From: Gluconacetobacter azotocaptans
GTDB lineage: Bacteria; Pseudomonadota; Alphaproteobacteria; Acetobacterales; Acetobacteraceae
Assembly: GCF_014174355.1 (NCBI RefSeq)
Contig: NZ_JABEQF010000020.1
Coordinates: 1 to 58,446 of the forward strand
Direction: 5' to 3'
Length of the DNA stretch: 58,446 nucleotides
The position numbers were made by a program, and so were the translations under genes. Shown here piece after piece: positions 25,837 through 36,340 of this stretch. Positions within the stretch are counted from its first letter, which is position 1, and the number at the start of each line of letters is the position of its first letter. Under the pieces are notes generated by a model. That model was given only the letters and a program-made list of their open reading frames with translations, did no database searches and was not told the origin of the DNA.

Positions 25837-25919
25837 TGCGAGCTGCGGGACTCGAACCCGCACGCCCTTGCGGGCGCAAGATTTTAAGTCTCGTGCGTCT
25901 ACCATTCCGCCAAGCTCGC
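25837..25919 (-). tRNA. tRNA-Leu (anticodon TAA)
   Basis: Minus-strand cloverleaf: acceptor GCGAGCT/AGCTCGC, D-arm with GGCGGAATGGTAGAC, anticodon arm CGAGA-CTTAAAA-TCTTG giving TAA, a long variable arm (GCGCCCGCAAGGGCG region) typical of class II tRNAs, and T arm GCGGG-TTCGAGT-CCCGC. Discriminator A. CCA is not encoded. Its 3' end faces the low-GC segment at 20.5-25.8 kb. Confidence 0.95.
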
Positions 25920-25979: not shown

Positions 25980-26702
25980 CTATGCGGCGCGCAACAGCGC
26001 CGTGCCGTAACGGCGGAGCCACGCTTCGGCCGCACGGCGGTGCGGGGTCAGGGTGGCGACCAGGGCCCAGAAGTCCGGGCCGTGATTCAGGTGCCGCAGA
26101 TGCGCCAGTTCGTGGGCAATGACGTAATGCTGGACTTCGGCCGGGGCCATCAGCAGCCGCCAGCTCAGCATCACCGTGCCGTCGGCGTTGCAACTGCCCC
26201 ACCGGCTGCTGGTGTCCTTGATCGTCAGGCGCCGGGGGCGCAGGCCCGACTGAACGGCCAGCTCCGCCACCCGCGCGCCCAGCCGCACCCCGGCCTCGCG
26301 CCGCAGGAAGGCGCCCAGGCGGCGCGGCAGGAACGGGGCCTCGCCGCTGACCAGGATGGCGCCGTCCTCGATCCAGACGCCGCGCCGGCCCTGCGGGCAA
26401 TGGCGGATGGCATGGGGCCGGCCGTCCAGCAGCACCTGCCCGCCATCCTGCCACGGCGTCGGCGCGGGCAGCGTGTCGATGCGCGCCACCACCCAGTCAG
26501 CATGAGTGCGCAGCAGGCTCAGCCCGGCCTCGCGCCCCACACGGGGCGGCAGGGTAACGACGACACCGCCGCCGCGCGGGTCGATCCGCAGCGACACGCG
26601 GCGCGCCCGCGCCGAACTGCGCCAGCGCAGCGGGACCTCGCGCCCCGCCAGATGGATCGTCTCGCCCGTCCCGTCCGCGCTGCCGGACAGGGGCTCGGTC
26701 AT
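25980..26702 (-). CDS. YgjP-like metal-dependent hydrolase (DUF45)
   Basis: A 240-residue protein whose C-terminal half has a zincin motif [16 protein letters not shown] with a third His, preceded by [17 protein letters not shown], the hallmark of the YgjP/WLM group. No signal peptide, so cytosolic. Function is poorly known across bacteria. The ATG overlaps the stop of the upstream ycgN gene as ATGA, indicating translational coupling. Confidence 0.9.
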
Positions 26703-27214
26703 CGGGACTCGCCGTCCGGGCCGGACCGGTCCCGCGCCGGCCGCCGCACCCGGGGCTTGCGCCCGGCCGGCATCTGGCCGGGCCAGTCGGCGATATGATG
26801 TTCCAGCGGGCCGGCCCGCCGTTCGCTGACGGCGCGGCCGCGCACCGAAACCCCGGCCTCATGCACCGTTTCCGGCCGGCCCGACACCAGCGGATGCCAC
26901 CACGCCAGGGGCCGGCCGTCCGCCACCAGCCGATAGGCACAGGACGGCGGCAGCCAGTCGATATCTTCCAGCGCGTCCGGGGTCAGCCGAACGCAATCGG
27001 GCACCTTGCGCTGCCGGCCCGCGTAATCCGAACAGCGACAGCTATCGGTATCCAGCAGCCGGCAGGCCACGTCGGTATACAGGACCGTGTCGGTCTCGTC
27101 CTCGCGCAGCTTGTGCAGGCAGCAGCGGCCGCAGCCGTCGCACAGCGATTCCCACTCTTCGGTCGTCATCTCGTCCAGGCGCCGGACCTGCCAGAAAGGG
27201 GGGGAATCAGTCAT
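26699..27214 (-). CDS. YcgN/UPF0260 cysteine-cluster protein
   Basis: A 171-residue protein with the pattern CDGCGRCC near residue 25, further cysteines ([14 protein letters not shown], then VPDC) and the conserved [22 protein letters not shown] block. Cysteine spacing suggests a bound metal or Fe-S cluster. Function unknown. The C-terminal 20 residues are Arg/Pro-rich. The ATG at 27214 has no strong binding site. Translationally coupled to the YgjP-like gene downstream. Confidence 0.92.
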
Positions 27215-27273
27215 GGGTGCTGTTTTACGCACTCCGGCCCGTCCCGAAAAGGAAAAGGCGCGGCAAAGGCCGC

Positions 27274-27729
27274 CTATCGGGCGTCGACCAGCGCGACCAG
27301 CACCGACCCGCCGACCGCCAGCAGCAGCGCCGCCAGGCCGGACGGCCCCAGCAGCGGCAGCCACAGCATGCGCGCCCGTACGCCTCGCCCGGCTCCCAGC
27401 CCTTCCGCCGTACGGGCCAGCCCCGCCGGCAACCGGCAGGCCGCCCCCAGCGGCGGCAGCAGCACCAGCGGCACCAGGCACAGCCCTTGCAGGACGGCGC
27501 GGGGCACACCGCCATCCTCCCCTGCCAGACGCGGCAGCAGCAACGCCAGCGCGCAACCGGGAATCGCCAGGGCCACCGCCAGGGTGCGGCAGGCCGCCAG
27601 CACGCGGCCGGACAGGCCCGGCCCGGCGGCGCGCAGCAGGACGAACGCCGCCACCCCTAGGCCAGCCGCCGCCGCCGTCATCCCCAGGCAGGCGGCCAGG
27701 TCGGGCAGCATCACGCCGGGCGCGGTCAT
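27274..27729 (-). CDS. Truncated ABC transporter permease-like protein
   Basis: A 151-residue, very hydrophobic protein with about four membrane spans. The end matches the cytoplasmic EAA loop of PotB/PotC-type permeases in degraded form ([19 protein letters not shown] then LPLLGP), which normally sits mid-way in a protein of about 270 residues. It overlaps the substrate-binding gene by ATGA and is followed by ycgN after 59 bases. Either a shortened functional permease or a decaying gene; only the EAA-loop half is present. Confidence 0.6.
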
Positions 27730-28727
27730 GCCGGGGCCGCCAGCCAGTCCGCGAACTTCCGGGCCAGGTCGGGCAGGTGATCCTGCCAGAACGCCGCGTC
27801 CATCGGCAGGGGCTGCGCCGCCGCGTCGTCGGGGCGGGCGCGATACAGGGCAGCGAAGCGGGCCACCCGATCCGTCCCTGCCATATAGTGCAGCAGGTCG
27901 CGCGCCCGGTCGCGCTCGGCCGCGTCCAGCCCGGGGGCGATGCCCCAGGACAGGCCGTCATCCAGGCCCTGCGCCCACTGGAGCCCGACATCGCGCCGCC
28001 CCCGCCCGGCGGCAGACGGCGCCGCAGCCTGCGTGGCGGCCTGGGCCGCCACCTCGCCTGCCGCCGCACTGGTCATCAGCACGCCGCCATTGCCGATGAT
28101 CCGCGCGGAATCCGCCCCCGTGGTCCACCACACGATATAAGGCCGCAACTGGCTGAGCTTGTGGAACGCCCGCGCCACGCCCTCGGGCGTGGCCAGCACG
28201 GTATAGACATCCGCCGGCGCCACCCCGTCGGCCATCAGCGCGATTTCCAGTGTCGAGCGCGGGTCCTTCCGCAGCCCCCGCTTGCCGGGATAGCGCACGA
28301 CGTCCCAGAAATCGCTCCAGCGCGGGGCGGACGGGATCCGGCCCCGGTCCCAGGCCAGGACGATACCGTCATGCAGGGCCGGCACGCTGCAGGCTTCCGC
28401 GCTGCCGGCGCTGCCGCCCAGACGCTGCAACAGCCCCTGCATGCAGGCGATGCGGGCGGTGCTGTCCTCCATCAGGGCCATCGCCCAGGCGTGGCGCCCC
28501 CGCGCCGGACGGTTGGCCGGCACCTGCGCGTCGCCGTCCCAGGCGAACCGCCGGACGCCGACGCCCTTGGCGCGCGCGAAGGGCTGGAAGAACGCCTGGT
28601 CCTGCGCCTTGCCCAGAGCGCCGCCCCAACTGGCGACCACCAGCGTATGCCCGCCGCCCCGGGCGTCGACCCGGGCCGGCGCCGACAGCGCCAGCAGCAG
28701 AAAGGCCCCCGAGAGGGGACGGGACAC
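27726..28727 (-). CDS. ABC transporter substrate-binding protein (PotD-like, divergent)
   Basis: A 333-residue predicted periplasmic protein. The GTG start at 28727 gives a short signal peptide ([16 protein letters not shown]). The early strand [19 protein letters not shown] is typical of family 1 solute-binding proteins for polyamines and related compounds. Later landmarks are [20 protein letters not shown] and [17 protein letters not shown]. Coupled by ATGA overlap to the truncated permease. The binding specificity is not clear, and the partner ATPase is degenerate. Confidence 0.8.
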
Positions 28728-28796
28728 TCGGAAAGACGGGCGGGGCGGGGCGGACAGGGGGGATCTCTTTCACAGCGCGGAACGAAGTGCGGAAAA

Positions 28797-29933
28797 CTAG
28801 ACCAGTTCGCCACGAAACGGAAAGGCCACTGCGTGCGCCGGCTGCCACGCCAGAAGGGCGCGCCGGCCGGGCGACAGGCCCGCCAGGGTCTGGATCGGCG
28901 GACGGCGGACCAGGACCTCCTGCCCGTCGGGCAGCCGCAGCCGCAGCCGCACATGATCGCCCATGTGGTGGACCGCCACCAGGGTGGCGGGAACGTCGCC
29001 GTCACCGCCATCCGCCGCGTCGCGGCCATGGAACGGCCCGGCGGAGAATCCGGCGGGAAACAGCGTGGCGATCCGGTCGGGCCGGACGCACAGGGTGCAC
29101 AGCGCGTCGGCTTCCAGCCCCTCGGCGGCCATCGCCTCCATCACCGCGCCGCTGGCCAGGCGGACGCGGGCCTGGTCGTCCTCGACCCATTCGACACGGC
29201 CGGTCAGGCTGTTGGCATCGCCGAATCCGGTGGCAACCCGGTCGCAGCCCGGGCGGTCGAACAACTCGGCGGCCGTCCCCGTCTGCAGCAGCGTGCCCCC
29301 GGACAGGAAGCCGATCCGGTCGCCCAGCAGCAGTGCGTCCTCGCGGTCACGGGTCGCCAGCAGAACCGTCAGGCCCTGCGCCCGCGCCAGACGGGCCAGA
29401 AGCGTGCGCATGGCCCGCCGCCCCTCGGGCTCCAGCGCCGCGAAAGGGTCGTCCAGCAGCAGGACGGGGGGCGCGAAGGCCAGCAGGCGCCCCAGCCGCA
29501 CACGCCAGGCCTGTTCCGCATCCAGGTCGCGCGGTCGGCGCGACGCCTGCCCGTCCAGCCCCAGCAGGGCCATGATCTCGCGCACGCGGGCTGCGGTCTG
29601 CGGCCGGGGCATCCCCCGCGCGGCCAGCGGAAACGCCAGGTTCTGCCGCACGCTCAGGTGCGCGAACAGCGGATCGCGCGCGCTGAACAGGCCCATGCCG
29701 CGCTGGCCGGGCGGCCGGGCGGTCACGTCCTGCCCATCCACGGCGATGCTGCCCGCCACGGCGGGCAGGTGCCCCGCCAGCGTATCCAGCAGGCAGGAGA
29801 GGTCCGCCGCGCGGTTGCCCAGCAACGCCAGGCACGTGCCGGCGGCGACCTGCACGCCCAGGCCGGGGCGCGATGGGTCGAGCGGCGCGCGCACAAGTCC
29901 GCGAACGTCAAGACGTGGGAGGGAAGGTGGCAT
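28797..29933 (-). CDS. ABC transporter ATPase-like protein with degenerate catalytic motifs
   Basis: A 378-residue protein with the overall PotA/FbpC layout: nucleotide-binding domain (1-235) and C-terminal TOBE-like regulatory domain (240-378). Every ATP motif is altered. The Walker A position reads LLGNRAADLSC (38-47) without GK(S/T). The Q-loop Gln is Ser84. The signature is LDAEQ (137-141) rather than LSGGQ. Walker B ends LLLDDP with Asp162 for the catalytic Glu, and the H-loop His is Arg195. The frame is intact. ATG at 29933 is the likely start (weak binding site). It precedes the substrate-binding gene by 69 bases. Confidence 0.8.
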   Translation of the reverse strand: MPPSLPRLDVRGLVRAPLDPSRPGLGVQVAAGTCLALLGNRAADLSCLLDTLAGHLPAVAGSIAVDGQDVTARPPGQRGMGLFSARDPLFAHLSVRQNLAFPLAARGMPRPQTAARVREIMALLGLDGQASRRPRDLDAEQAWRVRLGRLLAFAPPVLLLDDPFAALEPEGRRAMRTLLARLARAQGLTVLLATRDREDALLLGDRIGFLSGGTLLQTGTAAELFDRPGCDRVATGFGDANSLTGRVEWVEDDQARVRLASGAVMEAMAAEGLEADALCTLCVRPDRIATLFPAGFSAGPFHGRDAADGGDGDVPATLVAVHHMGDHVRLRLRLPDGQEVLVRRPPIQTLAGLSPGRRALLAWQPAHAVAFPFRGELV

Positions 29934-30006
29934 GCAAGAACCGAAACCTGACGAGCGGGCGGGACGTTGGTAACAATGTACACAACCGCATCGGAGGACA
30001 CGACCC

Positions 30007-30285
30007 ATGTTCGGCAGCAAGACCAAGAAACCCACCCAGGAGGCCCTGAAGGCGACGCATGACGAATTGCTGTCGCTGAAGTCGCAGGTGGAGCGGCTGA
30101 TGAACGAGCATGTGACGCCGGTGCTGGCCGATGCGGCCGACAGGGCCGAGCACGTCGTTGCCAATGCGCGCGAACTGACCGATCATCAGGTGCAGGACGT
30201 CACCAGCCGCGTGCGCGCGAAGCCCATGATCGCCATCGCCATCTTCGCCGCGGTCGGCTATCTGCTCGGGCGCATCACCCGGTAG
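30007..30285 (+). CDS. DUF883/ElaB-YqjD family membrane-anchored protein
   Basis: A 92-residue protein with a charged helical N-terminus (KKPTQEALKATHDELLSLKSQV) and one C-terminal membrane span (PMIAIAIFAAVGYLLGRITR), the standard ElaB/YqjD plan. E. coli relatives tether stationary-phase ribosomes to the membrane. GGAGG lies upstream of the ATG. Divergent from the ABC ATPase-like gene; the two-span protein follows after 39 bases. Confidence 0.88.
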   Translation: MFGSKTKKPTQEALKATHDELLSLKSQVERLMNEHVTPVLADAADRAEHVVANARELTDHQVQDVTSRVRAKPMIAIAIFAAVGYLLGRITR

Positions 30286-30324: not shown

Positions 30325-30765
30325 ATGAGAATAGCCGAACTTGGCAAGGCCACCGTGCAGGCGGAACTGACTGTCCGCCGGCAGATGGCCATCCGCATAG
30401 GCCGGCAGGCGGCTTTCCTGGTCATCGCAGGGGTTTTCGGCCTGCTGGCCATCCTGTCGGGCCACGCCCTGCTGTGGGCGTTCGCCTACCAGACGCTGGG
30501 CTTCAGCGTCCTGGGCGCGGCGGTCCTGGTCTTCGCCGCCGACGCCGTGGTCGCCCTGCTGTTCCTGCTGCTGGGCCGGCGGTCCATCATGACGCCGCAG
30601 GAAATCCGCGCGCGCTTCGAACGCGACCACGCGATCAACGAACTGCGCCAGGCCATGGCCCTGACGGCCGTCACCACCGCCGTCGCGGGGCCGGTCGGCC
30701 GGCAGGCGGGCCGGGCGATCTGGCATGTCGTGCGATCGGCCTTCGGCCGGAAGGGCAAGGCCTGA
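30325..30765 (+). CDS. Two-span membrane protein, YqjE/holin superfamily III-like
   Basis: A 146-residue protein with two central hydrophobic helices (AAFLVIAGVFGLLAILSG and LGAAVLVFAADAVVALLFLL), basic termini and a C-terminal amphipathic region. Position after a YqjD-like gene mirrors the E. coli yqjD-yqjE order. No phage genes are nearby. GAGGACC serves as ribosome binding site. Confidence 0.7.
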   Translation: MRIAELGKATVQAELTVRRQMAIRIGRQAAFLVIAGVFGLLAILSGHALLWAFAYQTLGFSVLGAAVLVFAADAVVALLFLLLGRRSIMTPQEIRARFERDHAINELRQAMALTAVTTAVAGPVGRQAGRAIWHVVRSAFGRKGKA

Positions 30766-30932: not shown

Positions 30933-31448
30933 ATGGCCGAGACCGAGCAGAGTGCGCGGGAACGATCCTTTGGACGTCGCCTGGCCCATCTGGGGGCCGC
31001 CTGGCGGCGTCAGATCGATCATGACCTGCGGGATTTCGGCCTGACCGAGGCCACCTGGCGCCCCATCCTGTACCTGGGCCTGCTGCCGCCGCCTGTCCGG
31101 CAGAGCGACCTGGCCCGCGCGCTGGGGATCGAGGCCCCGTCGCTGGCGCGCCTGCTGGACGTGCTGGAACGCAGGGACCTGATCGTGCGCACCCGCGACG
31201 AAGAAGACCGCCGCGCGAAACTGGTGCGCCTGAGCCCCGGCGGCCAGCGGATCGAGCACCAGGTGCGCCAGGCGGCCGATTCCGTGTCGGCCCGCCTGCT
31301 GCGTGACGTCACATCCGGCGAATTGCAGGCCTGCTACGCGGTGTTCGACCGGATCGAAAGCGCGCTGGGCGCCCCGCGCGACGACGAAGGCGCGCCCCTC
31401 GCCGAAGCCATGGCGACCGAAACCCAGGCGGCCCTGCCATGCGGCTGA
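30933..31448 (+). CDS. MarR family transcriptional regulator
   Basis: A 171-residue winged-helix repressor. The DNA-binding region is QSDLARALGIEAPSLARLLD followed by the wing RTRDEEDRRAKLVRLSPGG, diagnostic of MarR. Such proteins typically release DNA on binding aromatic acids or phenolics. The stop overlaps the FUSC gene by 10 bases, so it is the first gene of the efflux operon. Confidence 0.94.
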   Translation: MAETEQSARERSFGRRLAHLGAAWRRQIDHDLRDFGLTEATWRPILYLGLLPPPVRQSDLARALGIEAPSLARLLDVLERRDLIVRTRDEEDRRAKLVRLSPGGQRIEHQVRQAADSVSARLLRDVTSGELQACYAVFDRIESALGAPRDDEGAPLAEAMATETQAALPCG

Positions 31449-33667
31449 TCCCGCCGGTCGGCGCGCTGTCGCTGTCGACCCCCCTGCTCCGTTTGGGCAG
31501 CTTCGCCTTTCCGGAATGGAAAATCATCAGCCCGACGGTGGCCTATGCCGCGCGGGTGGTGCTGGCGCTGGGGCTGGCGCTGTTCCTGTCGTTCTATTTC
31601 CAGCTCCAGACACCGATGTCGTCGGTGACGACGGTCCTGATCGTGGCCAATCCGGTCGTCGGCGCCATGGTATCCAAAAGCTTCTGGCGCATCTTCGGCA
31701 CGGTGATCGGGGCGGTCAGCGCCGTCGTGCTGATGGCGCTGTTTCCGCAATCACCGCTGCTGTATTTCCTCGGCCTGTCGCTGATCATCGGCATCGCCTG
31801 CTGTGTGTCGACCCTGCTGCGCTTCTTCAAGGCGTATGCCGCCGTGCTGACGGGCTATACGATCGTCCTGATCTCGGTCTCGGCCTTCAGCGAGCCCGAC
31901 CATATCTTCATGTCCGCCATGTCCCGCCTGTCGGCGGTGACGGTGGGCATCGTCTGCACGGCGGTCGTCTTCTTGGTCACGTCCATCAGCCGGCCAGAGC
32001 GCATCCTGCGGCAGGTGGATCAGACCCTGCGCAACATCACCGCCCGCTTCTCGCACCCCGCGGACCTCGAGGGGGCGATCGCCGGCTCCACCCTGATGCC
32101 CGACGACAGCGGCCAGCCGCTGTCGTTCCGGGCGATGACGGTGACCAGCTACGACGAACGCGCGCGCCTGCTGTCGCAGGCCAACGCGCTGGTCGAAGCG
32201 ATCGAATATGCGGCCGCCGACAATTTCGCCATCGGCCGGCGCGCGCGCGGCCTGCACGCCGGCGTGGCCCGCCTGCTGGGGCTGCTCAGCACCCATCACC
32301 CCATCTGGGAGGATGTGCCGCTCGACACCCCCCATTCGGCCGAGGCGCGCCGGATCGTGCAGGAGGTGATGGCGACGTTCGCCGCCACCCCGCCCGAGGA
32401 CCTGCATCTGGACGACCCGGGCGACATGCGCGCGCGGATCGTCGCCGCCATCGCCCGCCTGGACGAACTGACCGAGCAGACGCAGGACCTGCCGACGATC
32501 GCGTTCATCGACAACGAACGCGACATCCTGGACCAGCTGCGCGCCGCGCTGGACGATTTCGTGGGGCCGCAGCCGCGCGTGCACCGCCTGCCGCTGAAGG
32601 TGTATTTCGACTGGCCGGCGGCCCTGCGCAATGGCGCGCGCGGGGCCTGCGTGACGTTGCTGGGCTGCCTGGCCTGGTATGTCCTGCGCTGGTCGAACGG
32701 CGCCACGATGCTGACCTACCTGATCCCGGCCTCGTGCCTGCTGGCGACCAGCCCGCTGGCGTCGCGGGCCAGCGCCCTGTTCGCCAGCGGCACGCTGGCC
32801 GCCATCCCCGCGGCCTTCCTCTGCCAGACCTACATCCTGCCGCAGATCGACGGATATCTGCTGCTGTGGTTGTCGTTGTCGATCTGCCTGCTGCCGGGCA
32901 TCTGGATCCAGTTCCATCCGCGCCATGCCATGCGCGGCTTCGGCTATGCGGTGTTCTTCAACGCGATGGTGCAGATCCGCAATCCGATTTCCTATGACGA
33001 TATCTCGCTGATGAATCTGTGGCTGTCGTACCTCATCGCCCTGATCGGGCTGGCGCTGGTGTTCAGGGTGATCCTGCCGGCCGACCACCGGCTGGATACC
33101 GGGCGGCTGGTGATGTCGATCGTCCGCGCCACCGAACGGCTGGCGTGCCGGCCGATCCACCGCCCGGTGGACTGGATGGTGTGGGAAAACCTGCAGATGC
33201 AGAAGATCCTGCGCCTGATCCAGCGCTTCTCGCTCGTCGCGCCGCCGCGCCGGGTGTACGAGGTCACGGATGCGGCCTTCGTCGCCGTGTCGCTGGGCCG
33301 GGTGATCGCGCGCCTGCGCGGCCTGATCCAGGACCCCGCGGTGCATCAGGACGACCGCGACCGCACCCGCGCGGCCCTGGCCGCCTTCCGGCACCTGCGC
33401 AGCCGCCCCGGCCTGACGGCGACGACCCTGCGCGAGACCGCGCAGGCGATCATCGCGCATGTCGAGGGACGGCACGCGGCCTCGCACGTGCCCACGCGCC
33501 GGATTGCCGCGTGCCTCGAACAGGCGTCCCTGCTGCTGGACGCAATTCCGGGATTCTTCCATACGCATGGACCGCTGCAATTGTCGGCCGACATGCCTGG
33601 CGCCGATAACCGGCTGACCCTTGCCATCCCCCCGGGAACGAATTTGTTCGGAATGAAAGCCGCGTGA
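31439..33667 (+). CDS. FUSC family inner membrane efflux protein (AaeB-like)
   Basis: A 742-residue protein with two hydrophobic blocks (about residues 35-180 and 400-535) around a large cytosolic region, the FUSC/AaeB plan. Characteristic stretches are LQTPMSSVTTVLIVANPVVG and the second block LIPASCLLATSPLASRASAL. Relatives export p-hydroxybenzoate and other aromatic carboxylates, or fusaric acid, with an HlyD partner. Overlaps marR upstream and the DUF1656 gene downstream (TGATG). Confidence 0.92.
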   Translation: MRLIPPVGALSLSTPLLRLGSFAFPEWKIISPTVAYAARVVLALGLALFLSFYFQLQTPMSSVTTVLIVANPVVGAMVSKSFWRIFGTVIGAVSAVVLMALFPQSPLLYFLGLSLIIGIACCVSTLLRFFKAYAAVLTGYTIVLISVSAFSEPDHIFMSAMSRLSAVTVGIVCTAVVFLVTSISRPERILRQVDQTLRNITARFSHPADLEGAIAGSTLMPDDSGQPLSFRAMTVTSYDERARLLSQANALVEAIEYAAADNFAIGRRARGLHAGVARLLGLLSTHHPIWEDVPLDTPHSAEARRIVQEVMATFAATPPEDLHLDDPGDMRARIVAAIARLDELTEQTQDLPTIAFIDNERDILDQLRAALDDFVGPQPRVHRLPLKVYFDWPAALRNGARGACVTLLGCLAWYVLRWSNGATMLTYLIPASCLLATSPLASRASALFASGTLAAIPAAFLCQTYILPQIDGYLLLWLSLSICLLPGIWIQFHPRHAMRGFGYAVFFNAMVQIRNPISYDDISLMNLWLSYLIALIGLALVFRVILPADHRLDTGRLVMSIVRATERLACRPIHRPVDWMVWENLQMQKILRLIQRFSLVAPPRRVYEVTDAAFVAVSLGRVIARLRGLIQDPAVHQDDRDRTRAALAAFRHLRSRPGLTATTLRETAQAIIAHVEGRHAASHVPTRRIAACLEQASLLLDAIPGFFHTHGPLQLSADMPGADNRLTLAIPPGTNLFGMKAA

Positions 33668-33861
33668 TGCTGACCGAGTTCAATTTCTTCGGCGTCTTCA
33701 TGGCCCCGATCGTCGTCTACGCGATCGCGGCCCTGCCCGTGACCATGCTGATCCGCTTCCTGCTGTGGTGGAGCGGCATCATGAAATGGTTCTGGCACCT
33801 CGCCCTGTTCGAGGTCGCCCTGTACACCTGCGTCCTCTGCCTGATGATCCTCTACGTCTGA
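33667..33861 (+). CDS. DUF1656 small membrane protein (AaeX-like)
   Basis: A 64-residue protein with two membrane spans, beginning MLTEFNFFGVFMAP, typical of DUF1656 proteins that accompany FUSC/HlyD pumps. The ATG at 33667 overlaps the preceding stop; a GTG one codon earlier is possible. Function unknown; presumably a pump subunit. Confidence 0.88.
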   Translation: MLTEFNFFGVFMAPIVVYAIAALPVTMLIRFLLWWSGIMKWFWHLALFEVALYTCVLCLMILYV

Positions 33862-33894
33862 ACTGCTGCCCCCAGGAAGGTTCGAGAATTTACA

Positions 33895-34806
33895 ATGCCC
33901 CTTCTGCGCACCCTGATCCGCGTGGTCCTGACCCTGACCGTGGTGGCCCTGGCCATCGTCATGGGCGTCACCCTTTGGGACACCTACATGATCGCGCCAT
34001 GGACCCGCGACGGGCGCGTCCGCGTCTATGTGGTGGACGTGGCGCCCGAAGTGCCCGGCACCGTGGTACAGGTGCCGGTGGTGGACAACCAGTTCGTCCA
34101 TAAGGGCGACCCGCTGTTCGTGCTGGACCCCGTGCGCTTCCGCCTGGCCATCCGCGAGTCCCAGGCCCGGCTGGACGGCGCGCTGGAAGAGCTGAAGCTG
34201 AAGCAGAACGACGCGAAGCGCCGCATGGGCCTGGGCGGCATCGTCTCGGCCGAAGAACAGGAGGTGTTCAATTCGAACGTCGCGACCCAGGTCGCCGCCG
34301 TCGACGCCGCGCGCGCCTCGCTGGACCTGGCGAAGCTGAACCTGCAACGCTCGGTCCTCTACTCCCCGGTCAACGGCTACGTCACCAACCTGAACCTGCG
34401 GGTCGGCGACTATGTGACCTCGGGCGCGGCGCGGCTGGCGGTGATCGACGCCGACTCGTACTGGGTGAACGGCTATTTCGAGGAAACCAAGATGTGGGGC
34501 GTGCATGTCGGTGACGTCGCCCGCGTCAAGCTGATGGGCTACAAGCAGATCATGCCCGGCCATGTCGTCTCCATCGCCCGCGGCATCAACGACCAGAACG
34601 GCGCCCCCGACCGCCTGGGCCTGCAGGACGTCAACCCGATCTTCACCTGGGTCCGCCTGGCGCAGCGCATTCCCGTACGCATCCATCTGGACCACGTGCC
34701 CGACAGCGTGACGCTGGCCGCCGGCATGACCTGCACCGTCACCGTCGGCCCCGAATCCCGGGGACAGCGGGGACGCCTGACCACCTGGCTGCAAGACCAT
34801 CTGTAA
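33895..34806 (+). CDS. HlyD-family periplasmic adaptor (AaeA-like)
   Basis: A 303-residue membrane fusion protein: one N-terminal anchor (VVLTLTVVALAIVMGVTLWD), a lipoyl-like half (VDVAPEVPGTVVQVPVVDNQ), a short helical hairpin (about 85-150) and a beta-barrel (VNGYFEETKMWGVHVGD). Bridges the FUSC pump to the outer-membrane channel encoded next. Starts 33 bases after the DUF1656 gene. Confidence 0.93.
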   Translation: MPLLRTLIRVVLTLTVVALAIVMGVTLWDTYMIAPWTRDGRVRVYVVDVAPEVPGTVVQVPVVDNQFVHKGDPLFVLDPVRFRLAIRESQARLDGALEELKLKQNDAKRRMGLGGIVSAEEQEVFNSNVATQVAAVDAARASLDLAKLNLQRSVLYSPVNGYVTNLNLRVGDYVTSGAARLAVIDADSYWVNGYFEETKMWGVHVGDVARVKLMGYKQIMPGHVVSIARGINDQNGAPDRLGLQDVNPIFTWVRLAQRIPVRIHLDHVPDSVTLAAGMTCTVTVGPESRGQRGRLTTWLQDHL

Positions 34807-34822
34807 GGCCCCCGGCACCCCC

Positions 34823-36340
34823 ATGACCATGAAGACGATGACCCGAAGGGCCAGCCTGTTCCTGACCTCCGCCCTGTTCCTGGCAGGGTGCACGGTCGGG
34901 CCGCGCTACCAGCCGGACCGGATGAAGCTGCCGGCAGCCTTCACCGAGGACGAGCACCCCGCCACACCGGACGAAATCGCGCGCACCAACGCCGAGCTGA
35001 AGGAATGGTGGCACCGGTTCAATGACCCGGAGCTGGACAAGCTGGTCGACCGCGCGATTGCAGGCAATTACGACCTGCAGATCGCCGGCCAGCGCATCCT
35101 GGCCGAACGCGCGCTGCGCGATGTCCAGGCCTCGGCCTGGTATCCGCAGGTCGATGCCAACACCACCAACGGCGACAGCCGCTATTCGCTGAACATCGAC
35201 AACTGGCCGCTGCGCCCGGGCAACCCGGCCAACCGGCCCGGCGCGTCCTACCTGTCGTACGGCGTCAGCGCCAGCTGGCAGGTCGATGTGTTCGGCCGCA
35301 TCCGCCGCAGTGTCGAAGCCCAGGAACACGCGGTCGAACAGACGATCGAGGAACGCCGCGCCGTCCTGATGACCATGCTGTCCTCGCTGGTCAGCGACTA
35401 TATGGTGCTGCGCGACACGCAGTTGCGGCTGGATATTTCCAACCGCAATATCCGCGTGGCGCAGGATGCCTACGATCTGACGCAGCGCCTGTACCTCGAA
35501 GGCGTGGGCAATACGCTGCAGATCGCCCAGGCAAAGGCCGAACTGGACGCCCAGCTGGCGGCCCGCGAACCCCTGCGCACCCATATCGCGCAGATCACCC
35601 ACGCCCTCGACGTGCTGATGGGCCAGGTGCCCGGCACCACCGAGGCCGAATTGAAAATAGCCCGGCCGCTGCCCAAGGTGCCGGACTTCCCCGCCACCCT
35701 GCCGTCCATCGTGCTGGCCAACCGCCCCGACATCCGCCGCGCCGAACGCGCCTATGCCGAGGCCACGGCCCGCATCGGCGTCGCCGTCGCGCAGATGTAT
35801 CCGAATTTCAGCATTCCGCTGAACTTCAACCCCAATGCGTCGGCCATGTACCAGCTGTTCGAGGCCGGGGCGTTGAGCTGGCAGTTCTTCATGCTGGCGT
35901 CGGTGCCGCTGATGCACGGCGGCAAGCTGACGGGCCAGATCCGCGCCGCCCAGGCCGCGGCCGAGGCCAGCCGCCTGGGCTACCGGCAGACCGTGCTGCA
36001 GGCGTTCCGCGAGGTCGAGGACGCCATGGCCGCGTGGCATGACGACGTCGAACATACCGAACTGCTGCACCGGGCGGCGGAAGACAGCACCCTGGCCAGC
36101 GAGCGCGCGCGCAAGCTGTACGGCGCCGGCCTGGTCGGCTTCCTGGAGGTGCTGACCACCGAACGCACCGCCCTGGCCGCCGAAAATGCCGAGGCCGTGG
36201 CCCAACTTGAACGGTTGCAGGATGCCATCGACCTGTACACCGCCATGGGTGCCGGCTGGCAGGGCGTGGGCGTCACCGCGGCCAGCCTGCCGGTGTCGCT
36301 GGAAACGCAGAACGTCCTGGCCCGCGCGTTGAAACAGTAA
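34823..36340 (+). CDS. NodT-family outer membrane efflux lipoprotein
   Basis: A 505-residue TolC-like channel of the NodT/OprM group. Signal peptide with lipobox LAGC (Cys23), then CTVGPRYQPD, and two repeated outer-membrane efflux halves (DVFGRIRRSVEAQEHAVE; ANRPDIRRAERAYAEATARI). Completes the tripartite pump. ATG at 34823 or 34829 are both possible. A hairpin repeat follows six bases after the stop. Confidence 0.95.
   Translation: MTMKTMTRRASLFLTSALFLAGCTVGPRYQPDRMKLPAAFTEDEHPATPDEIARTNAELKEWWHRFNDPELDKLVDRAIAGNYDLQIAGQRILAERALRDVQASAWYPQVDANTTNGDSRYSLNIDNWPLRPGNPANRPGASYLSYGVSASWQVDVFGRIRRSVEAQEHAVEQTIEERRAVLMTMLSSLVSDYMVLRDTQLRLDISNRNIRVAQDAYDLTQRLYLEGVGNTLQIAQAKAELDAQLAAREPLRTHIAQITHALDVLMGQVPGTTEAELKIARPLPKVPDFPATLPSIVLANRPDIRRAERAYAEATARIGVAVAQMYPNFSIPLNFNPNASAMYQLFEAGALSWQFFMLASVPLMHGGKLTGQIRAAQAAAEASRLGYRQTVLQAFREVEDAMAAWHDDVEHTELLHRAAEDSTLASERARKLYGAGLVGFLEVLTTERTALAAENAEAVAQLERLQDAIDLYTAMGAGWQGVGVTAASLPVSLETQNVLARALKQ

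Follow-up and report, generated by a model that had tools for sequence, protein, structure and literature searches.

The gene at 28797..29933 on the minus strand of the window, by which we mean the whole stretch of 58,446 nucleotides that was analysed, encodes an ABC subunit of the PotA/MalK type (378 aa plus stop, NBD* in the following) that has a regulatory TOBE domain, while none of its catalytic motifs is intact. On balance we favour the reading that NBD* is part of a docking complex without ATP hydrolysis, which would serve as a scaffold or sensor, is kept by selection and derives from a polyamine-type importer that decayed stepwise. ABC proteins are usually defined by the binding and hydrolysis of ATP. 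To our knowledge no earlier ABC assembly is known as a pure protein-docking or sensing device, and the cassette described here would be the first if this reading is true. In the available portions of the open-access literature on inactive, degenerate or pseudoenzyme ABC proteins such a cassette is not described.

The NBD fold and the regulatory TOBE domain that characterise an ABC ATP-binding subunit were found with Pfam, AlphaFold2 and Foldseek alike. Pfam reported ABC_tran with 51.8 bits (cut-off 25) and TOBE_2 with 47.6 bits (cut-off 21), so that the 378-residue frame with a TOBE-like domain described in an earlier note on this DNA was recovered as such. The structure prediction which that note had proposed as a check gave a confident PotA/MalK-like fold (AlphaFold2, pLDDT 93.9, pTM 0.89) and the top Foldseek match of the model was E. 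coli PotA (8y5f_A, E 8.7e-34). The number of NCBIfam models matching NBD* was 142 and the best 25 of the 142 all stayed below their curated cut-off. Among the named ATPase subunits NBD* scored best for PhnT, with 166.6 bits (cut-off 499.15), and reached 159.5 bits for PotA (cut-off 355.6). A 954-aa open frame also runs antisense over the cassette (27087-29951, plus strand) and is probably a by-product of the high GC content. As GC-rich DNA gives such a frame, an open frame alone is weak evidence for the NBD* gene; what places the NBD* frame beyond chance is its near-full-length homology in relatives together with the low dN/dS in that frame.

We set the motif positions of NBD* by alignment to working relatives. 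The former Walker A (residues 39-46, 29796..29819) reads GNRAADLS in place of GPSGxGKT, with Leu45 at the position of the Lys, and the former signature (residues 137-141, 29511..29525) reads LDAEQ. Asp162 (29448..29450) stands at the position of the Walker B catalytic Glu and Arg195 (29349..29351) at that of the H-loop His; all of these features lie on the minus strand and all four losses had been named correctly in the earlier note. For the Q-loop the alignment led to a different residue: the note had taken Ser84 for the replaced Gln, whereas Ser84 pairs with the preceding Phe and the aligned residue is Ala85. Judged by its sequence, NBD* lacks all five key features of an ABC ATP-binding subunit, i.e. 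the Walker A Lys, the LSGGQ signature, the Q-loop Gln, the catalytic Glu and the H-loop His.

Across the window and 60 fetched loci GK[ST] is intact in nine and missing in 52. We refer to rows without GK[ST] as dead and compared 72 dead rows to 29 canonical rows. Lys45 was found in none of the dead rows, which is partly a matter of definition as they were selected by the missing GK[ST], and most loci had been collected by similarity to NBD*. Glu162 was likewise found in none, His195 in four, Gln85 in three and Gly139 in one. None of the five key features was kept in 66 of the 72 dead rows, one was kept in five rows and two in a single row, compared with all five in each of the 29 canonical rows. 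GK[ST] was also missing from all 25 loci that were chosen by the mini-permease described below and not by Walker A (L129-L133, L192-L211).

The entropy profile of the dead clade shows where change has accumulated. The former P-loop columns 40-44 are among the fastest-varying (82nd-96th percentile) and the docking columns 86-90 are slow (9th-32nd percentile). A new motif, RDPLF, adjoins the former Q-loop; its Arg86-Asp87 (29673..29678, minus strand) is represented by R in 43 and by D in 41 of 52 dead rows. These columns bear on the suggestion that the altered pocket of NBD* still accommodates a nucleotide or some other ligand and that NBD* uses this for signalling, which we regard as very unlikely. 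It is true that the first Walker B Asp is kept in 44 and Ser/Thr46 in 49 of the 72 dead rows and that the predicted fold is confident. However, the pocket columns 40-44 belong to the most variable ones, Lys45 is absent throughout and GK[ST] did not reappear in the loci picked in another way. In the docking complex that we favour, NBD* would presumably bind no nucleotide. An NBD that is conserved despite lost catalytic residues is described for heterodimeric exporters with a degenerate nucleotide-binding site, namely TM287/288, TmrAB, TAP and ABCC1, although one of their sites is canonical and ATP is still bound at the degenerate sites (PMC7756269, in part). In the NBD* cassette, on the other hand, the whole ATP site is gone and there is no canonical partner: the frames at the dead loci held no second NBD in the cassette.

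The cassette consists of three genes. Downstream of the NBD gene in all 52 dead loci lies a gene for an extracellular solute-binding protein of the polyamine/GABA type (SBP*), which in the window occupies 27726..28727 on the minus strand and encodes 333 aa. It was recognised by Pfam as SBP_bac_8 (72 bits, cut-off 27) and its PDB profile matches are polyamine/GABA-type binding proteins. In an alignment without L081, L090 and six near-copies, the N-lobe SWGG and the C-lobe YNGR of working relatives, whose ligand roles are putative, were altered by eye in most of the 14 dead SBP rows; the SBP* of the window retains SWGG. Its gene overlaps by four bases with that of the mini-permease (27274..27729, minus strand), a PotC-type remnant of 151 aa with four hydrophobic segments and a coupling loop of the form RTAxGLGAG...WLPLLGP. 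Opposite-strand genes were seen between SBP* and the mini-permease at L079 and L120 and presumably encode 5-aminolevulinate synthase.

Like the permease of an ABC importer, the mini-permease has a homologous core that includes the coupling loop: its profile matched PotC residues 65-193 (E 2.3e-9) and also long permease frames (best E 9.4e-14). A stretch of 24 protein letters is conserved in the family. Six helices and ~260 residues as in PotB and PotC are not reached with four hydrophobic segments and 151 residues. Pfam BPD_transp_1 did not match the mini-permease of the window and matched 11 of the 36 members of profile set A1 (best E 2.9e-5); the diversity-chosen profile sets A1, A2 and A3 hold 36, 39 and 37 rows, respectively. 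The best Foldseek match of the mini-permease is weak (E 0.23), so that its homology rests on the sequence profile. A short hydrophobic frame of 109-190 residues lies between SBP* and the YcgN gene in 50 of the 52 dead loci; for the remaining two, the profile recovered the mini-permease in L119 (G286) but found none in L121 (G129).

The surroundings of the cassette are conserved as well. The gene for a YcgN-family cysteine cluster protein (26699..27214, minus strand; NCBIfam matches below curated cut-offs, partial frame) lies next to the cassette at 51 of the 52 dead loci and at none of the nine loci with an intact Walker A, and a YgjP-like gene (25980..26702, minus strand; Pfam YgjP-like, 157.7 bits) is present in 50 of 52. 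Two divergent neighbours lie on the plus strand: a DUF883 protein (30007..30285), which we take to be YqjD-like and whose position is conserved by tblastn, and a small membrane protein (30325..30765) with a Phage_holin_3_6 match below the cut-off, presumably YqjE-like. Further out we noticed a tRNA-Leu (TAA) gene at 25837-25919 on the minus strand, shortly downstream of the YgjP-like gene, and, at 30933-36340 on the plus strand, what looks like an efflux operon, with a MarR-like regulator, a FUSC-type membrane protein and HlyD-like and NodT-like frames as read from the frames. The main text of a Gluconobacter knockout screen, as far as it was accessible, returned no match for spermidine, polyamine, putrescine, YcgN or YgjP (PMC12041372).

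One of the nearest known systems is PotD-PotABC, the spermidine importer of E. coli and a type I ABC importer (PMC11414716, in part). It has in common with the cassette the NBD fold with regulatory domain, a polyamine-type binding protein and the permease core that the mini-permease profile matches in PotC. The differences are the five key features, all absent from NBD*, two six-helix permeases in place of one 151-aa remnant, and the EAA-motif Glu of PotC, to which an Arg corresponds in the mini-permease. A second comparison is offered by the working relatives L096, L098, L099 and L100, which share the order of NBD followed by SBP and match NBD* at 36-41%. They differ in that all five key features are intact and, as read from the frames, the SBP is followed by full-length permeases, which number two at L096 and L098 and at least one at L099 and L100.

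To avoid any influence of the motifs themselves on the phylogeny, we removed the motif columns, and six near-copies within the genus had been dropped beforehand. In the resulting tree the 52 dead rows fall on one side of a single branch with an SH-aLRT support of 99, so that the loss requires one change. Four loci adjoin this clade with branch supports of 87-90 (L169, L182, L093, L175). They keep GK[ST] and lack the Q-loop Gln, both signature glycines and the H-loop His. The same combination was seen in L188 and L189, which were checked by alignment only, and the Walker B Glu is retained in three of the six. As all six keep Walker A yet have lost these three other features, the decay was stepwise, and the pattern suggests that Q-loop, signature and H-loop went first and Walker A last. 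The permease may tentatively be said to have shrunk already at this stage: in L184, L185 and L189, which belong to the intermediate genus, the SBP is followed by a hydrophobic frame of 149-205 residues, although the mini-permease profile matched one of the three (24 bits) and left the frames of L185 and L189 unmatched. At L188 no SBP match was obtained.

The intermediates L184, L185 and L189 adjoin frames that read as Mla-type genes (STAS-MlaE, MlaF, MlaD; names from reading), and the same applies to the working relatives L094, L095 and L097. These three have intact-motif NBDs with no full permease adjoining in the frames listed; L097 retains the SBP, and L094 and L095 run into a STAS-MlaE-like gene. 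A relocation of the cassette from the Mla-type side to the YcgN-YgjP side may have accompanied the loss of Walker A.

The cassette is widespread within the family. A scan of named genomes yielded 17 loci, among which Gluconacetobacter johannae and G. tumulisoli are 97% identical and the rest reach 41% at most. In an order sample of 200 genomes, all of them Acetobacteraceae, the mini-permease profile scored at least 70 bits in 84 as counted among the matches listed, including G137 with a stop. The next match (52.7 bits) lies inside a 489-residue frame, and the broken G014 locus scored 44.6 bits. A class sample of 289 genomes searched at E 1e-13 returned the window's genome plus matches of 54-57 bits inside three long frames of 265-643 residues; spread outside the Acetobacteraceae is unsupported in this sample at this threshold. 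A plasmid relative can be dismissed, as three plasmid records match only 6-17% of the gene.

The earlier note had reasoned that a retained frame with lost motifs should be checked in orthologues, and that normal motifs in close ones would speak for recent decay. The gene is present in all 14 Gluconacetobacter genomes, in each case without internal stops, and every aligned row of the genus lacks the motifs. Recent decay in a single genome is thus ruled out, as the gene and its losses are common to the genus and occur across the family. The dN/dS comparison, which had also been proposed, points in the same direction. For NBD* we obtained omega values (NG86) of 0.098 for G000-G006, 0.073 for G000-G011 and 0.111 for G006-G011. 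A working paralogue gave 0.145, 0.130 and 0.133 for the same pairs, a second one 0.138 (G000-G006) and a third one 0.195 (G000-G011). NBD* is under selection no weaker than that on its working paralogues (0.07-0.11 vs 0.13-0.20). Across all close pairs outside this trio omega ranged from 0.07 to 0.18, and distant pairs with high dS gave 0.285-0.349. For SBP* we found 0.10-0.25 in close pairs with changes (0.12-0.25 in the window's trio) and for the neighbouring YgjP gene 0.13-0.28. The mini-permease is under weaker constraint: omega is 0.42-0.53 within the window's trio and 0.49-0.77 in distant pairs, and of the ten further close pairs with changes nine gave 0.12-0.37 and one 0.62.

There are, however, copies outside the genus in which the gene has decayed. 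The NBD copy of G014 is broken by one in-frame TGA and that of G137 is split over two frames; these two distant genomes are the only ones in which signs of a pseudogene were seen, and neither the frameshifts nor the relaxed selection that would have weighed against the earlier note were seen in the genus. At four of four small-genome loci examined (L122, L123, L124, L126) NBD* and the mini-permease are absent and a lone SBP* stands between a YqjE-like gene and YcgN-YgjP. Whole-genome searches of three of these small genomes (G045, G082 and G113) returned weak NBD matches at best (E 1e-36 to 2e-35 over ~200 residues). Such cases could suggest that NBD* is a slowly decaying relic without function. 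We consider this extremely improbable, because it is contradicted by the selection data of the genus, by the 14 intact frames, by the SBP* that adjoins in every dead locus and by conserved residues that are missing from the working relatives. Within the genus, the absence of stops, the omega values and the motifs support the view of the earlier note that retention suggests a new, possibly non-hydrolytic role; the unit concerned by the loss is the three-gene cassette rather than NBD* on its own.

Because four loci retain SBP* alone, this protein can outlive the rest of the cassette. It is conceivable, if rather improbable, that SBP* alone has a present job and that NBD* and the mini-permease either serve it, e.g. 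by anchoring or stability, or are slowly vanishing. The weak constraint on the mini-permease and the broken NBD* copies of G014 and G137 would agree with this, but in the window's trio NBD* is under stronger constraint than SBP*.

The regulatory half is the slowest part of NBD*: among six close pairs, omega lies between 0 and 0.10 in five and reaches 0.13 in the remaining one. This would also agree with NBD* being a regulatory subunit that pairs with a functional NBD or transporter outside the cassette, much like the degenerate sites in heterodimeric exporters, and working PotA-like paralogues do exist in the window's genome. Nevertheless we judge such a partnership unlikely. The four working paralogues tested (E 1e-100) are present in 1, 2, 7 and 12 of the 14 genus genomes, compared with 14 of 14 for NBD*, and NBD* covaries with its own mini-permease.

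This covariation is centred on the proposed docking residue Asp50 of NBD* (29784..29786, minus strand; Asp in 44 of the 52 dead rows and Glu in five) and Arg106 in the coupling loop of the mini-permease (27412..27414, minus strand). Among the first 44 pairs Asp50 occurred together with Arg106 in 40. After 25 pairs had been added, Arg106 was found in 54 of 69, in 51 cases with Asp50 and in three with Glu50; none of the 15 pairs without Arg106 has Asp50. We computed mutual information with average-product correction, leaving out L184 (an intermediate) and L128 (a broken gene). NBD50-TM106 ranked first of 45,990 column pairs, NBD86-TM110 third and NBD87-TM110 fifth. Ranks 2, 4 and 6-11 join columns without a known docking reason, which indicates that shared ancestry accounts for some of the signal. 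When mapped on the tree, Arg106 requires two changes and Asp50 requires four, and wherever Arg106 changes Asp50 is also gone. As there are only two changes of Arg106, the covariation rests on few independent events and a sign test cannot reach significance.

The residues involved suggest an exchange of charges. In MalK, Arg47 contacts the Glu of the EAA motif. The PotC residue aligned to TM106 is such a Glu and the E. coli PotA residue aligned to Asp50 is an Arg; the canonical Glu at this position was taken from the PotC alignment. A related case is known from LptBFG, where replacing a coupling-helix Glu by Arg is lethal and is relieved when the groove Arg loses its charge (PMC5082905, in part). 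Taken together, these sequence patterns provide good but not conclusive evidence that NBD* would still sit on the mini-permease. The fuller claim, an ABC-derived complex without nucleotides whose motor and transport path are gone and whose parts are held together through a charge-rewired coupling interface, is one that we put forward tentatively, at somewhat less than an even chance.

Under the docking-complex reading the history would be as follows. In one lineage of the Acetobacteraceae an ancestral polyamine-type ABC importer would have been stripped gradually of its motor and transport path. What remained would be an inner-membrane complex that uses no ATP and is maintained by selection: NBD*, probably a dimer through its regulatory domain, would dock on the four-helix mini-permease via the old coupling loop, with SBP* presumably located in the periplasm. 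Assembly would depend on what was kept, namely the coupling loop, the NBD groove that receives it and the regulatory domain, whereas the ATP site, the signature and a large part of the permease, which were lost, would have done the work. In the simplest case such a complex would dock and perhaps change its shape without ATP, and might act as a scaffold or, as a sensor, report the state of SBP* or of the membrane to a cytoplasmic partner. Both roles had been suggested in the earlier note; they are consistent with the docking covariation. PstSCAB-PhoU illustrates that the conformation of an ABC importer can serve as a signal independently of transport (PMC5775613, in part). PstSCAB itself still transports, whereas the NBD* cassette is expected to involve neither ATP use nor transport, and the parallel is one of analogy only.

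If this is correct, the cassette would be a natural and widespread example of an ABC importer that is retained despite the loss of its whole ATP machinery, with intermediates surviving. It would open to testing the long-standing question of how far the usefulness of an ABC complex depends on docking and conformation, and how far on ATP. For annotation it follows that such genes may be labelled as polyamine transporters and yet probably transport nothing. For the acetic acid bacteria the cassette suggests that an old pump was converted into something else.
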